From a virus: DNA of 34,948 nt. The translations under genes were made by a program, and so were the position numbers. Below the pieces are notes generated by a model that saw only the letters and a program-made list of their open reading frames with translations, did not search any database and was not told where the DNA came from. Below are positions 10,836 through 28,350 of this stretch, one piece after another (the stretch's first letter is position 1; each line of letters opens with the position of its first letter). The DNA lies in IMG/VR virus record IMGVR_UViG_3300037502_002560, positions 1 to 34,948 of that record. One strand, given 5' to 3'.

Positions 10836-10843
10836 CATAAATA
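10836..10843 (+). promoter_or_regulatory. late-type promoter box for the phasin-like gene
   Basis: CATAAATA, 49 nt before the ATG at 10885. It lies between two arms of an inverted repeat (ATTGATA/TATCAAT), and a second one follows (TGTAAC/GTTACA). Transcription would start just after the terminator at 10788-10818. Confidence 0.4.
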
Positions 10844-10884
10844 TCAATGTAACACAGTTACATTACACACAGAAAGGAAAAATT

Positions 10885-11169
10885 ATGTTCAATTTACCAG
10901 AATTAACCGTTGACGCTATTCAAAACGGTAAAAAGCAATTCATCAACAAATACATCACAAATCCAGATTTATCAAGAGCCTGGACACAGTATGTAGATTC
11001 ACAAACTGAGTTTCTTCACACTTCTATCAAAACAGGCACAACTGTTATGACTACATTAGGTCGTGAAGTTATGGAAACTAAAGTAGAAAAAATCTTCAAC
11101 CCATTTAGTATTGATTGGTTCCGTGCAGGGTGGGATGCATGGACTGCTCAAACTAATAAAAAGCACTAA
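10885..11169 (+). CDS. phasin-like small protein, 94 aa
   Basis: The start ATG at 10885 is fixed by a strong AGAAAGGAAAA site and by the terminator upstream, which rules out earlier in-frame starts. The protein is mostly amphipathic helix: ELTVDAIQNGKKQFINKYI, NPDLSRAWTQYVDSQTEF and a long helix with TVMTTLGREVMETKVEKIF, then IDWFRAGWDAW. This layout resembles phasin-type helical proteins, but the match is by impression and the function in a phage is unknown. It starts a cluster of tiny genes. Confidence 0.6.
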   Translation: MFNLPELTVDAIQNGKKQFINKYITNPDLSRAWTQYVDSQTEFLHTSIKTGTTVMTTLGREVMETKVEKIFNPFSIDWFRAGWDAWTAQTNKKH

Positions 11170-17398: not shown

Positions 17399-18199
17399 AT
17401 GAAAAGTCTTTTTAAGCTTGGTATTATCGCGGCTGCTATTCTTGCTGCTGGTTGCACCCGTATTGAAACGGGTGAGGTGGGTGTTCGTGTGGGCTTTGAC
17501 AAACAGGTCAAACCTGGCGAACTGTTGCCCGGTTCTTTCAATCAGGTTATGATTGGTGATGTCCTCACTTTTCCAGTCAAGGACGTCAATGTCACGCTGG
17601 AGAACATGACTCCTGTCGCCAAAGATAATAGCACGATGAAAGACCTCGATGCTGTTGTGGTCTATAACATTAATCCTAATCAGGTTAGCGAACTCTACGC
17701 AAGCAAAAACAAGAGCTTCCACGCTACTGACAAGAGCGGCGACGTTTTCCTGATGTACAATTACATCGTTCAGAACGCACGTAATGCTATCTACAAGGCT
17801 GCACGTAAGTATGAGGCACTTGATATGGCAGACAATCGTAGCGAAATGGAAAACTTCATTAAGGATGAAATTGTCCGCAACCTTGCCGAAGAAAAGCTGG
17901 ATGGATCTCTAAACATCAGCCAAGTCTTGATTCGTAATGTTGTGCCTGCTGACAGTGTTGTTGCAAGTGCAAACGAACTGGTTCGTGCTAAGAACGAACT
18001 CAAGCAAAAAGAAATTGAAGTCAAGACTGCCGAAGCTGAAAGTCGTCGTATGGCTGCACTGGCAAACAACAGTGCAAACAGTATTGCTTTCATGCAAGCA
18101 CAGGCTATGCTGAACATCAGCGAAGGTATTAAGAATGGCAAGGTACAGACCATTGTTGTTCCTAGCAACTTCACTGCATTGATGACTCCTTCTAAGTAA
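17399..18199 (+). CDS. SPFH/prohibitin-like lipoprotein
   Basis: A 266-residue protein with a lipoprotein signal peptide: lipobox LAAGC with lipidated C19. Then follows an SPFH-type domain (TGEVGVRVGFDKQVKPGELL, DLDAVVVYNINPNQV, an R-N-A region near IVQNARNAIYKAARKY) and a long helix (ANELVRAKNELKQKEIEVK) that assembles such proteins into rings. SPFH proteins scaffold membrane domains. In phages the role is unknown; they may protect the envelope or interact with the rII products. The ATG follows the previous TAA directly. Two small TM peptides precede it. Confidence 0.85.
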   Translation: MKSLFKLGIIAAAILAAGCTRIETGEVGVRVGFDKQVKPGELLPGSFNQVMIGDVLTFPVKDVNVTLENMTPVAKDNSTMKDLDAVVVYNINPNQVSELYASKNKSFHATDKSGDVFLMYNYIVQNARNAIYKAARKYEALDMADNRSEMENFIKDEIVRNLAEEKLDGSLNISQVLIRNVVPADSVVASANELVRAKNELKQKEIEVKTAEAESRRMAALANNSANSIAFMQAQAMLNISEGIKNGKVQTIVVPSNFTALMTPSK

Positions 18200-22183: not shown

Positions 22184-23383
22184 ATGACACAAGAAACCAA
22201 AATCAATCATTGTTCTTTTTGCGGATCGCATAAAGACGCTGTAAAAAAATTAATTGTTTCAGAAAATGTTTCAATATGTAGCGATTGCATTGAGTTATGC
22301 AACCAACTAATTTCTGATGATTCGACTATAGAACCTGACAAAAAGATCGTTAAAGAATACGATCCAGTTGAAATAAAAAATTATTTGGATAACTATGTCA
22401 TAGGTCAAGAAAATGCTAAAATGACTTTGAGCGTAGCTATAGCTAATCATTACAAAAGAATAGATAATCCCCCTTCTAATCTAGAAATATCCAAAAGCAA
22501 TATTTTACTTATTGGACCAACTGGTTCAGGTAAAACACTACTTGCAAAAACAGTAGCCAAATATTTAAATGTTCCTTTTGTAGTTGCAGATGCTACATCA
22601 TTAACCGAAGCTGGATATGTAGGGGACGATGTAGAAAGTATGATTAGTATGCTTGTAAATGCAGCGGGCGGCGATGTCAAGTTAGCAGAGAGAGGAATTG
22701 TTTTTATTGATGAAATAGATAAAATTGCACGTAAGGGTGAAAGCACTAGCATTACGAGGGATGTAAGTGGCGAGGGTGTTCAACAGGCTCTACTTAAGTT
22801 AGTGGAGGGAACCGTGTGTAGAATTCCCGCAGGAGGCGGACGAAAGCACCCCGGTGGTGATATGCTAGAAGTGAACACAAAAAACATTCTGTTCATCAGT
22901 GGTGGAGCCTTTGTAGGACTCAAAGAAATTATCAAATCTAGGGTTAAGGGCACTACGATGGGGTTCAGTGCAGAAGTGAAATCCAAACATGAAGAAGTTG
23001 ATCTTTCGGAAGTATCTCCTGATGATTTGACTAAATTCGGTATGATTCCAGAATTTATAGGACGATTTACTACATCAGTTACACTTAAAGACTTGAACAA
23101 AGATGAGTTATTTCAAGTTCTGACTGACATTAAAAACAATTACATCCAACAATACCAGTATTTGTTCTCTGTAGATAATGTAGAATTGAGTTTTGATAAA
23201 AAATCACTAGAACAGATAGTCGATAATTGTCTAACTTTGAAGACCGGTGCACGTGGGCTACACACTGAAATTGAGAAAGTTCTAATGCCTCATATGTATA
23301 ACCTCAAGAAATATGAGAAAAATGGCATAAGTAAGATAAATATAAGTCAAGATTTAGTTCTTAAGCCCAAATCTCTATTATGA
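22184..23383 (+). CDS. clpX: ClpX AAA+ unfoldase
   Basis: A 399-residue full-length ClpX that unfolds substrates with ATP and feeds ClpP. The zinc-binding domain has C10, C13, C32 and C35. The AAA+ core has Walker A GPTGSGKT (111-118), pore loop GYVGDD (144-149), Walker B VFIDEID (173-179), the RKH loop (220-222), PEFIGRF (289-295) and sensor-2 GARGL (356-360). The ClpP-docking loop, IGF in E. coli, reads MGF here (259-261), a conservative change. It is close to the E. coli length (424 aa), somewhat shorter at both ends. A ClpP gene (27763) and ClpS gene (24209) are nearby. The bS21 gene overlaps its stop by 4 nt. The leader shows no clear Shine-Dalgarno (GAG abuts the ATG). Confidence 0.95.
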   Translation: MTQETKINHCSFCGSHKDAVKKLIVSENVSICSDCIELCNQLISDDSTIEPDKKIVKEYDPVEIKNYLDNYVIGQENAKMTLSVAIANHYKRIDNPPSNLEISKSNILLIGPTGSGKTLLAKTVAKYLNVPFVVADATSLTEAGYVGDDVESMISMLVNAAGGDVKLAERGIVFIDEIDKIARKGESTSITRDVSGEGVQQALLKLVEGTVCRIPAGGGRKHPGGDMLEVNTKNILFISGGAFVGLKEIIKSRVKGTTMGFSAEVKSKHEEVDLSEVSPDDLTKFGMIPEFIGRFTTSVTLKDLNKDELFQVLTDIKNNYIQQYQYLFSVDNVELSFDKKSLEQIVDNCLTLKTGARGLHTEIEKVLMPHMYNLKKYEKNGISKINISQDLVLKPKSLL

Positions 23384-23609: not shown

Positions 23610-23638
23610 CTTTATTTTTTTGCGTAATCACGTATAAT
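23610..23638 (+). promoter_or_regulatory. putative hsp20 promoter
   Basis: A consensus TATAAT at 23633-23638; the -35 region at 23610-23615 is weak (CTTTAT). An overlapping AATAAATA box (23636-23643) is a late-type alternative. Either would begin the transcript near 23645, just upstream of the thermometer hairpins. Confidence 0.5.
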
Positions 23639-23648
23639 AAATAATGTT

Positions 23649-23700
23649 GTAGATGCCGATGGTCGGGTCTACATGTCATTCTTGCTTAATGAAAGGAGAA
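23649..23700 (+). promoter_or_regulatory. ROSE-like RNA thermometer in the hsp20 leader
   Basis: Two hairpins. The first is 23649-23672 (GTAGA/TCTAC around an inner CCGA/TCGG). The second is 23679-23700: arm TTCTTGCTT pairs with AAGGAGAA across a 5-nt loop, giving UUC/GAA, U-A, U-G, one unpaired G (23684), C-G, U-A, U-A. This is the ROSE signature: a UUGCU opposite the Shine-Dalgarno AGGA with a bulged G. The SD (AGGAG, 23694-23698) is fully sequestered six to seven nt before the ATG at 23706. Heating would melt the weak pairs and release it. ROSE elements control small heat-shock genes of proteobacteria. Confidence 0.72.
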
Positions 23701-23705
23701 TTGAA

Positions 23706-24149
23706 ATGACAAACCTATCTCTACGTTCCTTAGACATTCCGTCTATTCACAAATTTGCAGTTGGTTTTGACAACATGTTCGATGAACTATTGCGTCATAC
23801 AAATGCACAAGCAGGAACAAACTATCCCCCTTATAATGTCGTAAAATTTAGTGATGACAAATTCGCTATTGAATTAGCCGTTGCTGGTTTTAAAGACGGT
23901 GACATTGATGTAACCGTTGAAAAAAATCAACTGACAGTAAAGGGAGAGAAATCAGTAGAACTTAATGAAAATATTGAGTATCTACATCGTGGCATTAGTG
24001 CCCGCAATTTTCTACGTTCTTGGACTTTAGCAGATCATGTAGAAGTAACTGGAGCGGAAATCAAAGATGGGATTTTGACTGTTCAACTAGAACGACAAGT
24101 TCCTGAAGAACAAAAACCCAAGAAGATTGCAATTACCTACACTAAATAA
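23706..24149 (+). CDS. hsp20: small heat-shock protein, Hsp20/alpha-crystallin family
   Basis: A 147-residue IbpA-type chaperone that binds unfolding proteins. The alpha-crystallin domain spans about 40-130: PPYNVVKFSDDKFAIELAVAG, DIDVTVEKNQLTVKGEK, and the HRGISARNFLRSWTLADHVEV block, with a C-terminal PKKIAI segment (I-x-I anchor-like). The ATG at 23706 follows a strong AAAGGAGAA site; an ATG at 23673 in frame is rejected because it lies within the hairpin without a site. Hsp20 is a hallmark of many T4-like cyanophages and a few other aquatic phages. Temperature-dependent translation is expected from its leader. Confidence 0.93.
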   Translation: MTNLSLRSLDIPSIHKFAVGFDNMFDELLRHTNAQAGTNYPPYNVVKFSDDKFAIELAVAGFKDGDIDVTVEKNQLTVKGEKSVELNENIEYLHRGISARNFLRSWTLADHVEVTGAEIKDGILTVQLERQVPEEQKPKKIAITYTK

Positions 24150-24164
24150 TATTATAGTAGTGAC

Positions 24165-24194
24165 AAGTGTGCGGCATTCGTCGCACACTTTTTT
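24165..24194 (+). terminator. rho-independent terminator between hsp20 and clpS
   Basis: A 9-bp perfect stem (AAGTGTGCG/CGCACACTT) with an 8-nt loop and a T-run (24189-24194). It separates hsp20 from clpS, whose ATG is only 15 nt further. No separate clpS promoter is obvious, so clpS may depend on read-through. Confidence 0.85.
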
Positions 24195-24208: not shown

Positions 24209-24514
24209 ATGTCAAAAACAGAAACCAAAGTTAAAATCAAGCCTAATATTGGTCTTCAAGAACCTCCGTTGTTTAAAATCATTTACATTAATGATGATGT
24301 TACATCGATGGAATTTGTGGTTCAGTCATTGGTTGATTATTTCAATTATAATGTGGATACTGCTACTACAATAACAAAAAACATTCATGATGAAGGAAGT
24401 GCTGTAGTAGCAATCCTCCCATATGAAATCGCTGAACAAAAGGGCATTGAAGTTACTTTGGATGCAAGGGCTCAAGGATATCCCTTGCAAATTAAAGTGG
24501 AAGCAGAAGCTTAA
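24209..24514 (+). CDS. clpS: ClpS N-degron adaptor
   Basis: A 101-residue adaptor that in bacteria delivers proteins with N-terminal Leu, Phe, Tyr or Trp to ClpAP. It matches ClpS: PPLFKIIYINDDVTSMEFVV (19-38), then helices and AIL..EIAEQKG and the ARAQGYPLQI end. The key ligands are present: N28, D29, D30, the gatekeeper M34 and H60. The N-terminal 18 residues form the flexible extension. A short AAAGAGAAC site precedes the ATG. ClpA is not seen in this window, so it may use host ClpA (or AAA+ partners) or work with the phage ClpX in an unusual way. Confidence 0.92.
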   Translation: MSKTETKVKIKPNIGLQEPPLFKIIYINDDVTSMEFVVQSLVDYFNYNVDTATTITKNIHDEGSAVVAILPYEIAEQKGIEVTLDARAQGYPLQIKVEAEA

Positions 24515-27762: not shown

Positions 27763-28350
27763 ATGAGTTTGGTACCTATCGTTTTGGAACAAACAAGTCG
27801 TGGCGAACGCAGCTATGACATTTATAGCCGATTGTTGCGTGACCGTGTAATTTTACTTGAAGGTGAAGTACACGACCAGATGGCCAATCTAATCGTCGCA
27901 CAGTTGTTGTTTCTAGAAAGCGAAAACCCCGACAAAGATATCAGCCTATATATCAACAGTCCTGGTGGCAGTGTTACTGCTGGTATGGCTATCTATGATA
28001 CGATGCAGTTTATTAAGCCTGATGTACAAACGATTGTCATGGGACAGGCTTGTAGTATGGGTAGTCTACTTGCACAGTCAGGTGCACCCGGTAAACGCAT
28101 GATTCTACCACATGCCCGTCATATGATTCACCAACCAAGCGGCGGTGCAAGAGGTCAAGCAACTGACATGGAAATCCAAGTGAGAGAAATTCTTGCACTT
28201 AAAAAGTCATTGACTGATATCTATGTTAAGCATAATTCTAAAGGTCGTAATTACATGCAATTGCAACAAGACATGGAGCGTGACTTCTTTATGTCTGCAC
28301 AAGAGGCTGTAGATTATGGGCTAGCAGATAAGGTAATCCAAAATCGTTAA
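27763..28350 (+). CDS. clpP: ClpP serine protease
   Basis: A 195-residue ClpP with intact catalytic triad S98 (GQACSMGS), H123 (MIHQPSGG) and D174 (ERDFFMS). It resembles E. coli ClpP along its length. It starts [16 protein letters not shown], the sequence at which the mature E. coli enzyme begins, so it has no propeptide and needs no processing to expose the axial loops. The ClpX gene of this phage is about 5 kb upstream. It has its own consensus promoter and AAGGAA site. Phage 'ClpP-like' head proteases differ in domain order; this one looks like the true cellular enzyme. Confidence 0.95.

Follow-up and report, generated by a model that had tools for sequence, protein, structure and literature searches.

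A ROSE-like leader in front of phage hsp20 genes, a likely translational lock on a late gene

Introduction

How does a phage control the translation of a small heat shock gene that it carries itself? This question is raised by the hsp20 gene of the IMG/VR virus record IMGVR_UViG_3300037502_002560, whose 34,948 bases are referred to here, at their full length, as the window. The gene is a core gene of T4-like cyanophages, in which its role is unsettled and capsid scaffolding has been suggested (PMC3037559). An earlier note on this DNA had described the segment in front of hsp20 as a ROSE-like RNA thermometer, in which a terminal hairpin with a single bulged G in UUGCU opposite AGGA hides the Shine-Dalgarno (SD) sequence and a second hairpin lies upstream. 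The analysis presented here supports this interpretation overall, the term thermometer being one that would follow from homology to ROSE elements. It appears likely that a phage late gene is here kept under a translational lock of the ROSE type, which would be opened by warming and is probably also held by Hsp20.

A two-hairpin leader of the ROSE type

The whole two-hairpin leader spans positions 23649-23711 of the window. The SD-hiding hairpin (hairpin II) was confirmed in both sequence and coordinates, and consists of the pairs C23681-G23698, U23682-A23697, U23683.G23696, C23685-G23695, U23686-A23694 and U23687-A23693, with G23684 bulged. These core pairs stood as the earlier note had drawn them, whereas the two outer A-U pairs that it had added are possible in the window, the first being conserved in just 21 of the 41 distinct SD hairpins of the group. 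The upstream hairpin (hairpin I) also carries a bulged base, G23655, beside U.G and C-G pairs, and the two hairpins share a common core in which U, the bulged G and C lie opposite two Gs. A ROSE-like element has been defined in the literature by a terminal hairpin pairing U(U/C)GCU with the SD, a single bulged G, at least one upstream hairpin (two to four hairpins in all) and a small heat shock gene downstream, all of which are present here, and by an opening to translation as the temperature rises, which would follow by homology. By this published definition the leader is ROSE-like, as had been claimed.

Relatives were collected by viral-contig searches seeded with the Hsp20 proteins of the window, Mosig, S-RSM4, Melnitz and P-SSM3, which gave about 400 loci and a sample of 288 distinct 80-nucleotide (nt) leaders, one of them (L083) probably bacterial. 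The sequence [U/C]GCU followed by AGGA precedes the start codon in all 288, against 23 of 326 control open reading frames (ORFs), several of the latter being dnaK genes with a genuine ROSE leader. Indeed, UUGCU or UCGCU is present in every distinct leader, and the bulged G is kept in all leaders of the G type (see below). A bulged-G hairpin I was scored in 270 of the 288 leaders, compared with 3.9% of shuffles, and most of the remaining leaders have a UUCG-type loop that the scoring rule misses. Chance formation of the window leader was estimated from 20,000 dinucleotide shuffles in which the SD was kept: the SD motif arose in 2.6%, a bulged-G hairpin I in 8.1% and both together in 0.17%. Whole-genome counts of the pattern TYGCT..AAGGA are unspecific unless hairpin I and the start codon are also considered.

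This type of leader is found before hsp20 in every related phage examined, including freshwater, SAR11, methylotroph, cyanobacterial and Pseudomonas phages. Fifteen carriers are named phages: Melnitz, Mosig, HTVC008M, HTVC115P, C48C1, S-CAM1, P-SSM3, S-RSM4, S-PM2, S-RIM2, S-CREM2, ACG-2014d, ACG-2014f, P-HM2 and the Pseudomonas jumbo phage PA5oct. Judged from sequence, a ROSE-type leader is near-universal in phage hsp20 genes. On the host side, a scan of genome contigs for related small heat shock proteins matched just two remote acidobacterial ones.

Several individual records deserve mention. PA5oct (L745, NC_071039.1) has a ROSE-like leader and the same hsp20-clpS order as the window. In P-HM2 (L746, GU075905.1:133301), the hsp20 start has probably been misannotated: it was set ahead of the ROSE-like leader, which thereby falls inside the annotated coding sequence. 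The record of "Pseudomonas phage Y7" (L083, OQ572409.1; UNVERIFIED) carries a full ROSE_3 element (69 bits) together with ibpA and is likely a bacterial contig; the same probably applies to the phage records of Salmonella and Campylobacter that include hsp20.

Covariation and pairing of the start codon

Base pairs were counted by anchoring, without using pairing to align the leaders; a MAFFT alignment misplaced the SD. Covariance in related leaders, which the earlier note had put forward as a check, was found in both hairpins. At position n3 of the SD hairpin, 193 distinct hairpins comprise 126 C-G, 36 G-C and 30 U.G pairs and one other combination. Pelagiphage-like leaders with U.G at n3 have C-G as the next pair and an SD lengthened to AAGGAGG, while S-CREM2, with CUUGCCU and AGGGAG, provides a further two-sided change. 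Across relatives, the SD takes the forms AAGGAG, AAGGAC or AAGGAGG, or AGGGAG in S-CREM2, and the anti-SD changes along with it. In hairpin I, anchored on its inner part, an arm pairs with its own partner at 3.95 of 5 positions, a value that none of 2000 within-group permutations reached, and with the arms of other leaders at 2.66.

The hsp20 start codon lies at 23706. In the freshwater group to which the window belongs, GUCAU is nearly invariant and AUGACA invariant, and folding predicts that UGUCAU-AUGACA pairing probably holds the start codon as well in this lineage; an invariant start codon allows no covariation signal. The UGUCAU segment was not seen in phage groups other than this freshwater lineage. 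An in-frame ATG at 23673 falls within the leader, and gene callers would take it as the start of hsp20, so that the leader would be hidden.

A late promoter at the base of hairpin I

For cyanomyoviruses, NATAAATA has been described as the late promoter (PMC2984593). Among 275 leaders that contain hairpin I, a TAAATA box occurs within the preceding 22 nt in 198, nearly always with its end 1-5 nt before the hairpin; the box occurs in 1.2% of random windows drawn from the same loci. As is typical of a T4-type late gene, hsp20 has a TATAAATA-like late promoter upstream. With the usual spacing of T4 late promoters, transcription of hsp20 would start at about 23649, the first base of hairpin I. This upstream signal is the sole promoter signal found in register, and a start downstream of 23679, which the earlier note had named as a finding that would speak against a thermometer, is not indicated. 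The predicted first base of the transcript is also that of hairpin I. The hsp20 gene is thus probably transcribed late, into an mRNA that is folded from birth.

Family scores and folding

The search with Rfam ROSE models that had been proposed gave a divided answer. ROSE_3 (RF02523) is the best match and aligns end to end at 23647-23711 with 26.7 bits (E = 0.0015 in 401 nt); a search of the window at gathering cut-offs returned no match, and a search of genomes with RF02523 gave just one 9-bit match, elsewhere in the window. Other matching phage leaders score between 26.8 and 37.3 bits (34.1 for Melnitz and 37.3 for L258), and E. coli ibpA, used as a positive control, reaches 100 bits with ROSE_2. 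Some of these results weigh against a thermometer of the ROSE class. The 26.7 bits of the window fall short of the ROSE_3 gathering score of 43, and the leader is not a member of RF02523. Nearest-neighbour folding shows no sharp melting, and the energy needed to open the SD at 25 C is only slightly higher in the window group than in controls (2.81 versus 2.62 kcal/mol). The ibpA leaders of E. coli and P. aeruginosa fold likewise, and because these validated leaders show no melting by the same method, folding models are not diagnostic for it. In other large phage groups, the SD opening energy at 25 C amounts to 3.3-4.5 kcal/mol. Hairpin I was nearly always formed in ViennaRNA folding from 10 to 45 C.

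The leader in front of dnaK and other genes

A scan for the pattern CUUGCUU-N(2-9)-AAGGAGA, made without an hsp20 seed, returned 64 ORFs, namely 53 Hsp20, 3 DnaK, 2 phasin-like short proteins and 6 others. The two phasin-like genes have the full two-hairpin leader; the six others lack hairpin I and look like chance matches. Phage dnaK leaders carry the G-type element in 43 of 63 cases, and the remaining ones carry CUUACUU. A phage dnaK with a two-hairpin ROSE-type leader often lies directly upstream of an hsp20 with its own leader (L029:533, L064:532, L413-L492 and L615-L691). The phasin-like proteins (L502 near 2800, minus strand; L561 near 4185, plus strand) have no Pfam match and are possible members of the same regulon.

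A concerted switch of bulged base and Hsp20 residue 54

In one phage group (loci L470, L478, L444-L490, and L616-L644 with L692-L720), dnaK and hsp20 alike carry A instead of G as the bulged base of either hairpin. Bulges of dnaK leaders were typed automatically and then corrected by eye (L413, L433, L435, L427, L489 and others). Among 96 distinct dnaK leaders, about 64 have G in both hairpins and 29 have A in both, one being discordant (L627/L672) and one unclear (L629). An A-type dnaK leader goes with an A-type leader of the adjoining hsp20 in all 29 genomes examined, while hsp20 could be read in 23 genomes of the G type or serving as controls, of which 20 have a G-type hsp20 leader, two lack a readable motif and one has a leader of the A type (L627).

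An alignment of 346 phage Hsp20 sequences has a single column that tells the two leader types apart, that of E. coli IbpA position 54, occupied by Ala in 318 of 318 G-type proteins and by Thr (27) or Ser (1) in the 28 A-type proteins. IbpA requires R93 to bind its own leader, and the roles of R93 and Y34 have been described (PMC10474464). In the phage proteins, the R93 equivalent is Arg in 290 of 300 and Lys in 10, and residue 34 is aromatic in all 300. The corresponding residues of the window Hsp20 are A60 (IbpA A54, in AVAGF), R100 (IbpA R93) and Y40 (IbpA position 34); its AlphaFold model has a mean predicted local distance difference test (pLDDT) score of 69.8.

The number of independent bulge switches is uncertain and lies between one and four. 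At least four changes to the A type are required on the DnaK tree and three on the Hsp20 tree; a single A-type clade is rejected, marginally, on DnaK (approximately unbiased test, p-AU 0.038) and not rejected on Hsp20 (p 0.21). Well-supported branches carry no more than two independent pairs, and the A-type leaders and the change at residue 54 may go back to a single ancestral event with hitch-hiking.

The thermodynamics of the SD hairpin can hardly account for a joint change of four hairpins in two genes and of one residue that is invariant otherwise, since the Pseudomonas hairpin I does not melt (PMC3669281). The switch suggests instead that Hsp20 itself reads the bulge of a ROSE-type leader, much as IbpA represses its own ROSE-led mRNA. 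It can be proposed, tentatively and at somewhat less than even confidence, that Hsp20 is a trans-acting reader bound by both hairpins, that residue 54 sets its bulge specificity (Ala for G, Thr or Ser for A), that hsp20 and dnaK form its regulon, and that hairpin I is a second binding site.

Alternative readings and a model of the lock

The leader could be primarily an operator for Hsp20 as an IbpA-like autorepressor, with temperature playing a minor part and aggregates titrating Hsp20 so that hsp20 (and dnaK) are translated. We give this close to an even chance. The agreement of bulge identity between both hairpins of dnaK leaders and between dnaK and hsp20 in 29 of 29 A-type genomes speaks for it, as do residue 54 as the sole column separating the leader types and the conservation of R93 and aromatic 34; moreover, hairpin I of the Pseudomonas ROSE element stays unmelted as the temperature rises and has no assigned function (PMC3669281), and the bulge of its phage counterpart switches too. 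Against this stand the few independent switches (3-4 minimum changes on the best trees), which leave room for lineage hitch-hiking, and L627, in which the SD hairpin of dnaK is of the G type and the hsp20 leader of the A type. If the bulge purine merely tuned hairpin stability, both genes would have switched together through selection for the same temperature range; the bulge does belong to the melting helix of hairpin II, yet the switch extends to hairpin I, which in Pseudomonas remains closed at temperatures of up to 50 C (PMC3669281), and the parallel switch at residue 54 is left unexplained. This explanation is unlikely.

Much the same holds, with a still smaller probability, for the idea that hairpin I just stabilises the transcript and that masking of the SD is incidental. 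Hairpins at the 5' end can stabilise mRNAs, and such a role has been suggested for the Pseudomonas hairpin I (PMC3669281), but the pairing of SD and anti-SD shows two-sided compensatory changes. Least probable of all is that TTGCTTAA is no anti-SD and belongs instead to a middle promoter as its T4 MotA box, whose consensus TGCTTtA (as given in PMC9004378) the anti-SD resembles. The motif is tied to the SD by a spacing of 5-7 nt in 259 of 288 leaders, lies downstream of the late promoter and co-varies with the SD, its changes to TCGCTT or TTACTT keep the pairing, and cyanomyoviruses have no motA (PMC2984593); on these grounds the MotA identity was rejected.

We return to the leader as a translational lock of the ROSE type. 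Transcription from the phage late promoter would start at the base of hairpin I, and an anti-SD strand that has a single purine bulged out would hold the SD, probably with the start codon in the window lineage. The hsp20 mRNA would then be made late in infection and little translated. By analogy with bacterial ROSE elements, translation would be low in the cool, and warming would weaken the bulged hairpin and give the ribosome access. On the model of the IbpA of gamma-proteobacteria and from the joint switch of bulge and residue 54, we infer a feedback in which free Hsp20 probably binds the bulged hairpins and the lock stays shut until unfolded or aggregating client protein draws Hsp20 away.

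The expression unit and its surroundings

The segment 23600-24200 of the window forms a small complete expression unit, with a late promoter, a 57-nt leader, hsp20 and a terminator-like hairpin (Table 1).

Table 1. Elements of the hsp20 expression unit in the window
Feature	Position	Strand	Basis
T4-type late promoter AATAAATA	23636..23643	+	TAAATA spacing kept in relatives; match to published cyanophage late promoter
Hairpin I, GUAGAU (G23655) CCGA UGG UCGG GUCUAC	23649..23672	+	Found in 270/288 relatives; arms co-vary
Putative anti-start segment UGUCAU, can pair with AUGACA 23706-23711	23674..23679	+	Conservation and folding prediction
ROSE anti-SD CUU(G)CUU, bulged G at 23684	23681..23687	+	288/288 leaders; two-sided changes at n3
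SD AAGGAG, sequestered in hairpin II	23693..23698	+	Varies jointly with anti-SD
hsp20, IbpA-type small heat shock protein	23706..24149	+	Pfam PF00011, 71.8 bits; alignment with E. coli IbpA
Intrinsic-terminator-like hairpin and T-run closing the unit	24166..24194	+	Sequence reading: AGUGUGCGGC AUUC GUCGCACACU, then U-run

A proteostasis set surrounds hsp20, with ClpX (22184-23383), ClpS (24209-24514), ClpP (27763-28350) and an SPFH/Band_7 protein (17399-18199). No ROSE motif was found in the ClpX, ClpS and ClpP leaders of the window, nor before the phasin-like ORF at 10885. The latter has a different leader structure (10836-10885), in which a late promoter is followed by a perfect hairpin, AAUGUAAC ACA GUUACAUU, just before the SD. 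The rIIA of the window resembles that of T4-type and jumbo phages such as XacN1.

Significance and comparison with known systems

If the translation of a late gene is kept under a conserved lock, Hsp20 would be a chaperone on demand, produced in an infected cell that is hot or filled with unfolded protein. The coupled switch of RNA and protein bears on how IbpA-type small heat shock proteins recognise mRNA and on the role of the non-melting hairpin I of ROSE elements. In agreement with the earlier note, no published ROSE element in a phage was found in the literature, subscription papers lying outside the scope, and the Melnitz genome paper discusses riboswitches with no mention of a thermometer. 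New are the place of a ROSE-like element on a phage late gene, the probable lock on the start codon, the proposed dnaK regulon and the A-bulge form. A widespread ROSE class would thus be added to three described phage thermometers and would extend to cyanophages, the described cyanobacterial hsp17 thermometer being of another type.

The closest known relative is the short thermometer of Pseudomonas ibpA (RF02523, ROSE_3; PMC3669281), with which the phage leader shares two hairpins, a bulged G in hairpin I (GAUGCC..GGGUC), a U(U/C)GCU anti-SD with bulged G, an IbpA-type gene downstream and an alignment over the full length of the model. It differs in having a phage late promoter instead of a sigma-32 promoter, in being A/U-rich and below the gathering cut-off, and in a start codon that is probably paired in the window lineage and unpaired in Pseudomonas; phage leaders also occur before dnaK and include an A-bulge subgroup. 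The ROSE_2 element of E. coli ibpA (RF01832; PMC10474464) likewise places a bulged-G hairpin beside the SD hairpin, and its protein has R93 and the aromatic residue 34, but the hairpin sequences differ, and self-repression is known for IbpA, whereas feedback by phage Hsp20 is presumed. The Synechocystis hsp17 thermometer (PMC4477652) also sequesters start codon and SD with two stacked stems, in a single hairpin rather than the two-hairpin bulged-G form, and cyanophages have the ROSE type instead. Finally, the known phage thermometers of lambda cIII, SPbeta blyA (fourU) and Caudoviricetes sigma-70 (fourU) would share with this leader the temperature-dependent translation of a phage gene (PMC11182007, PMC10586365); they are of the fourU or other types, none being ROSE and none controlling a chaperone gene.
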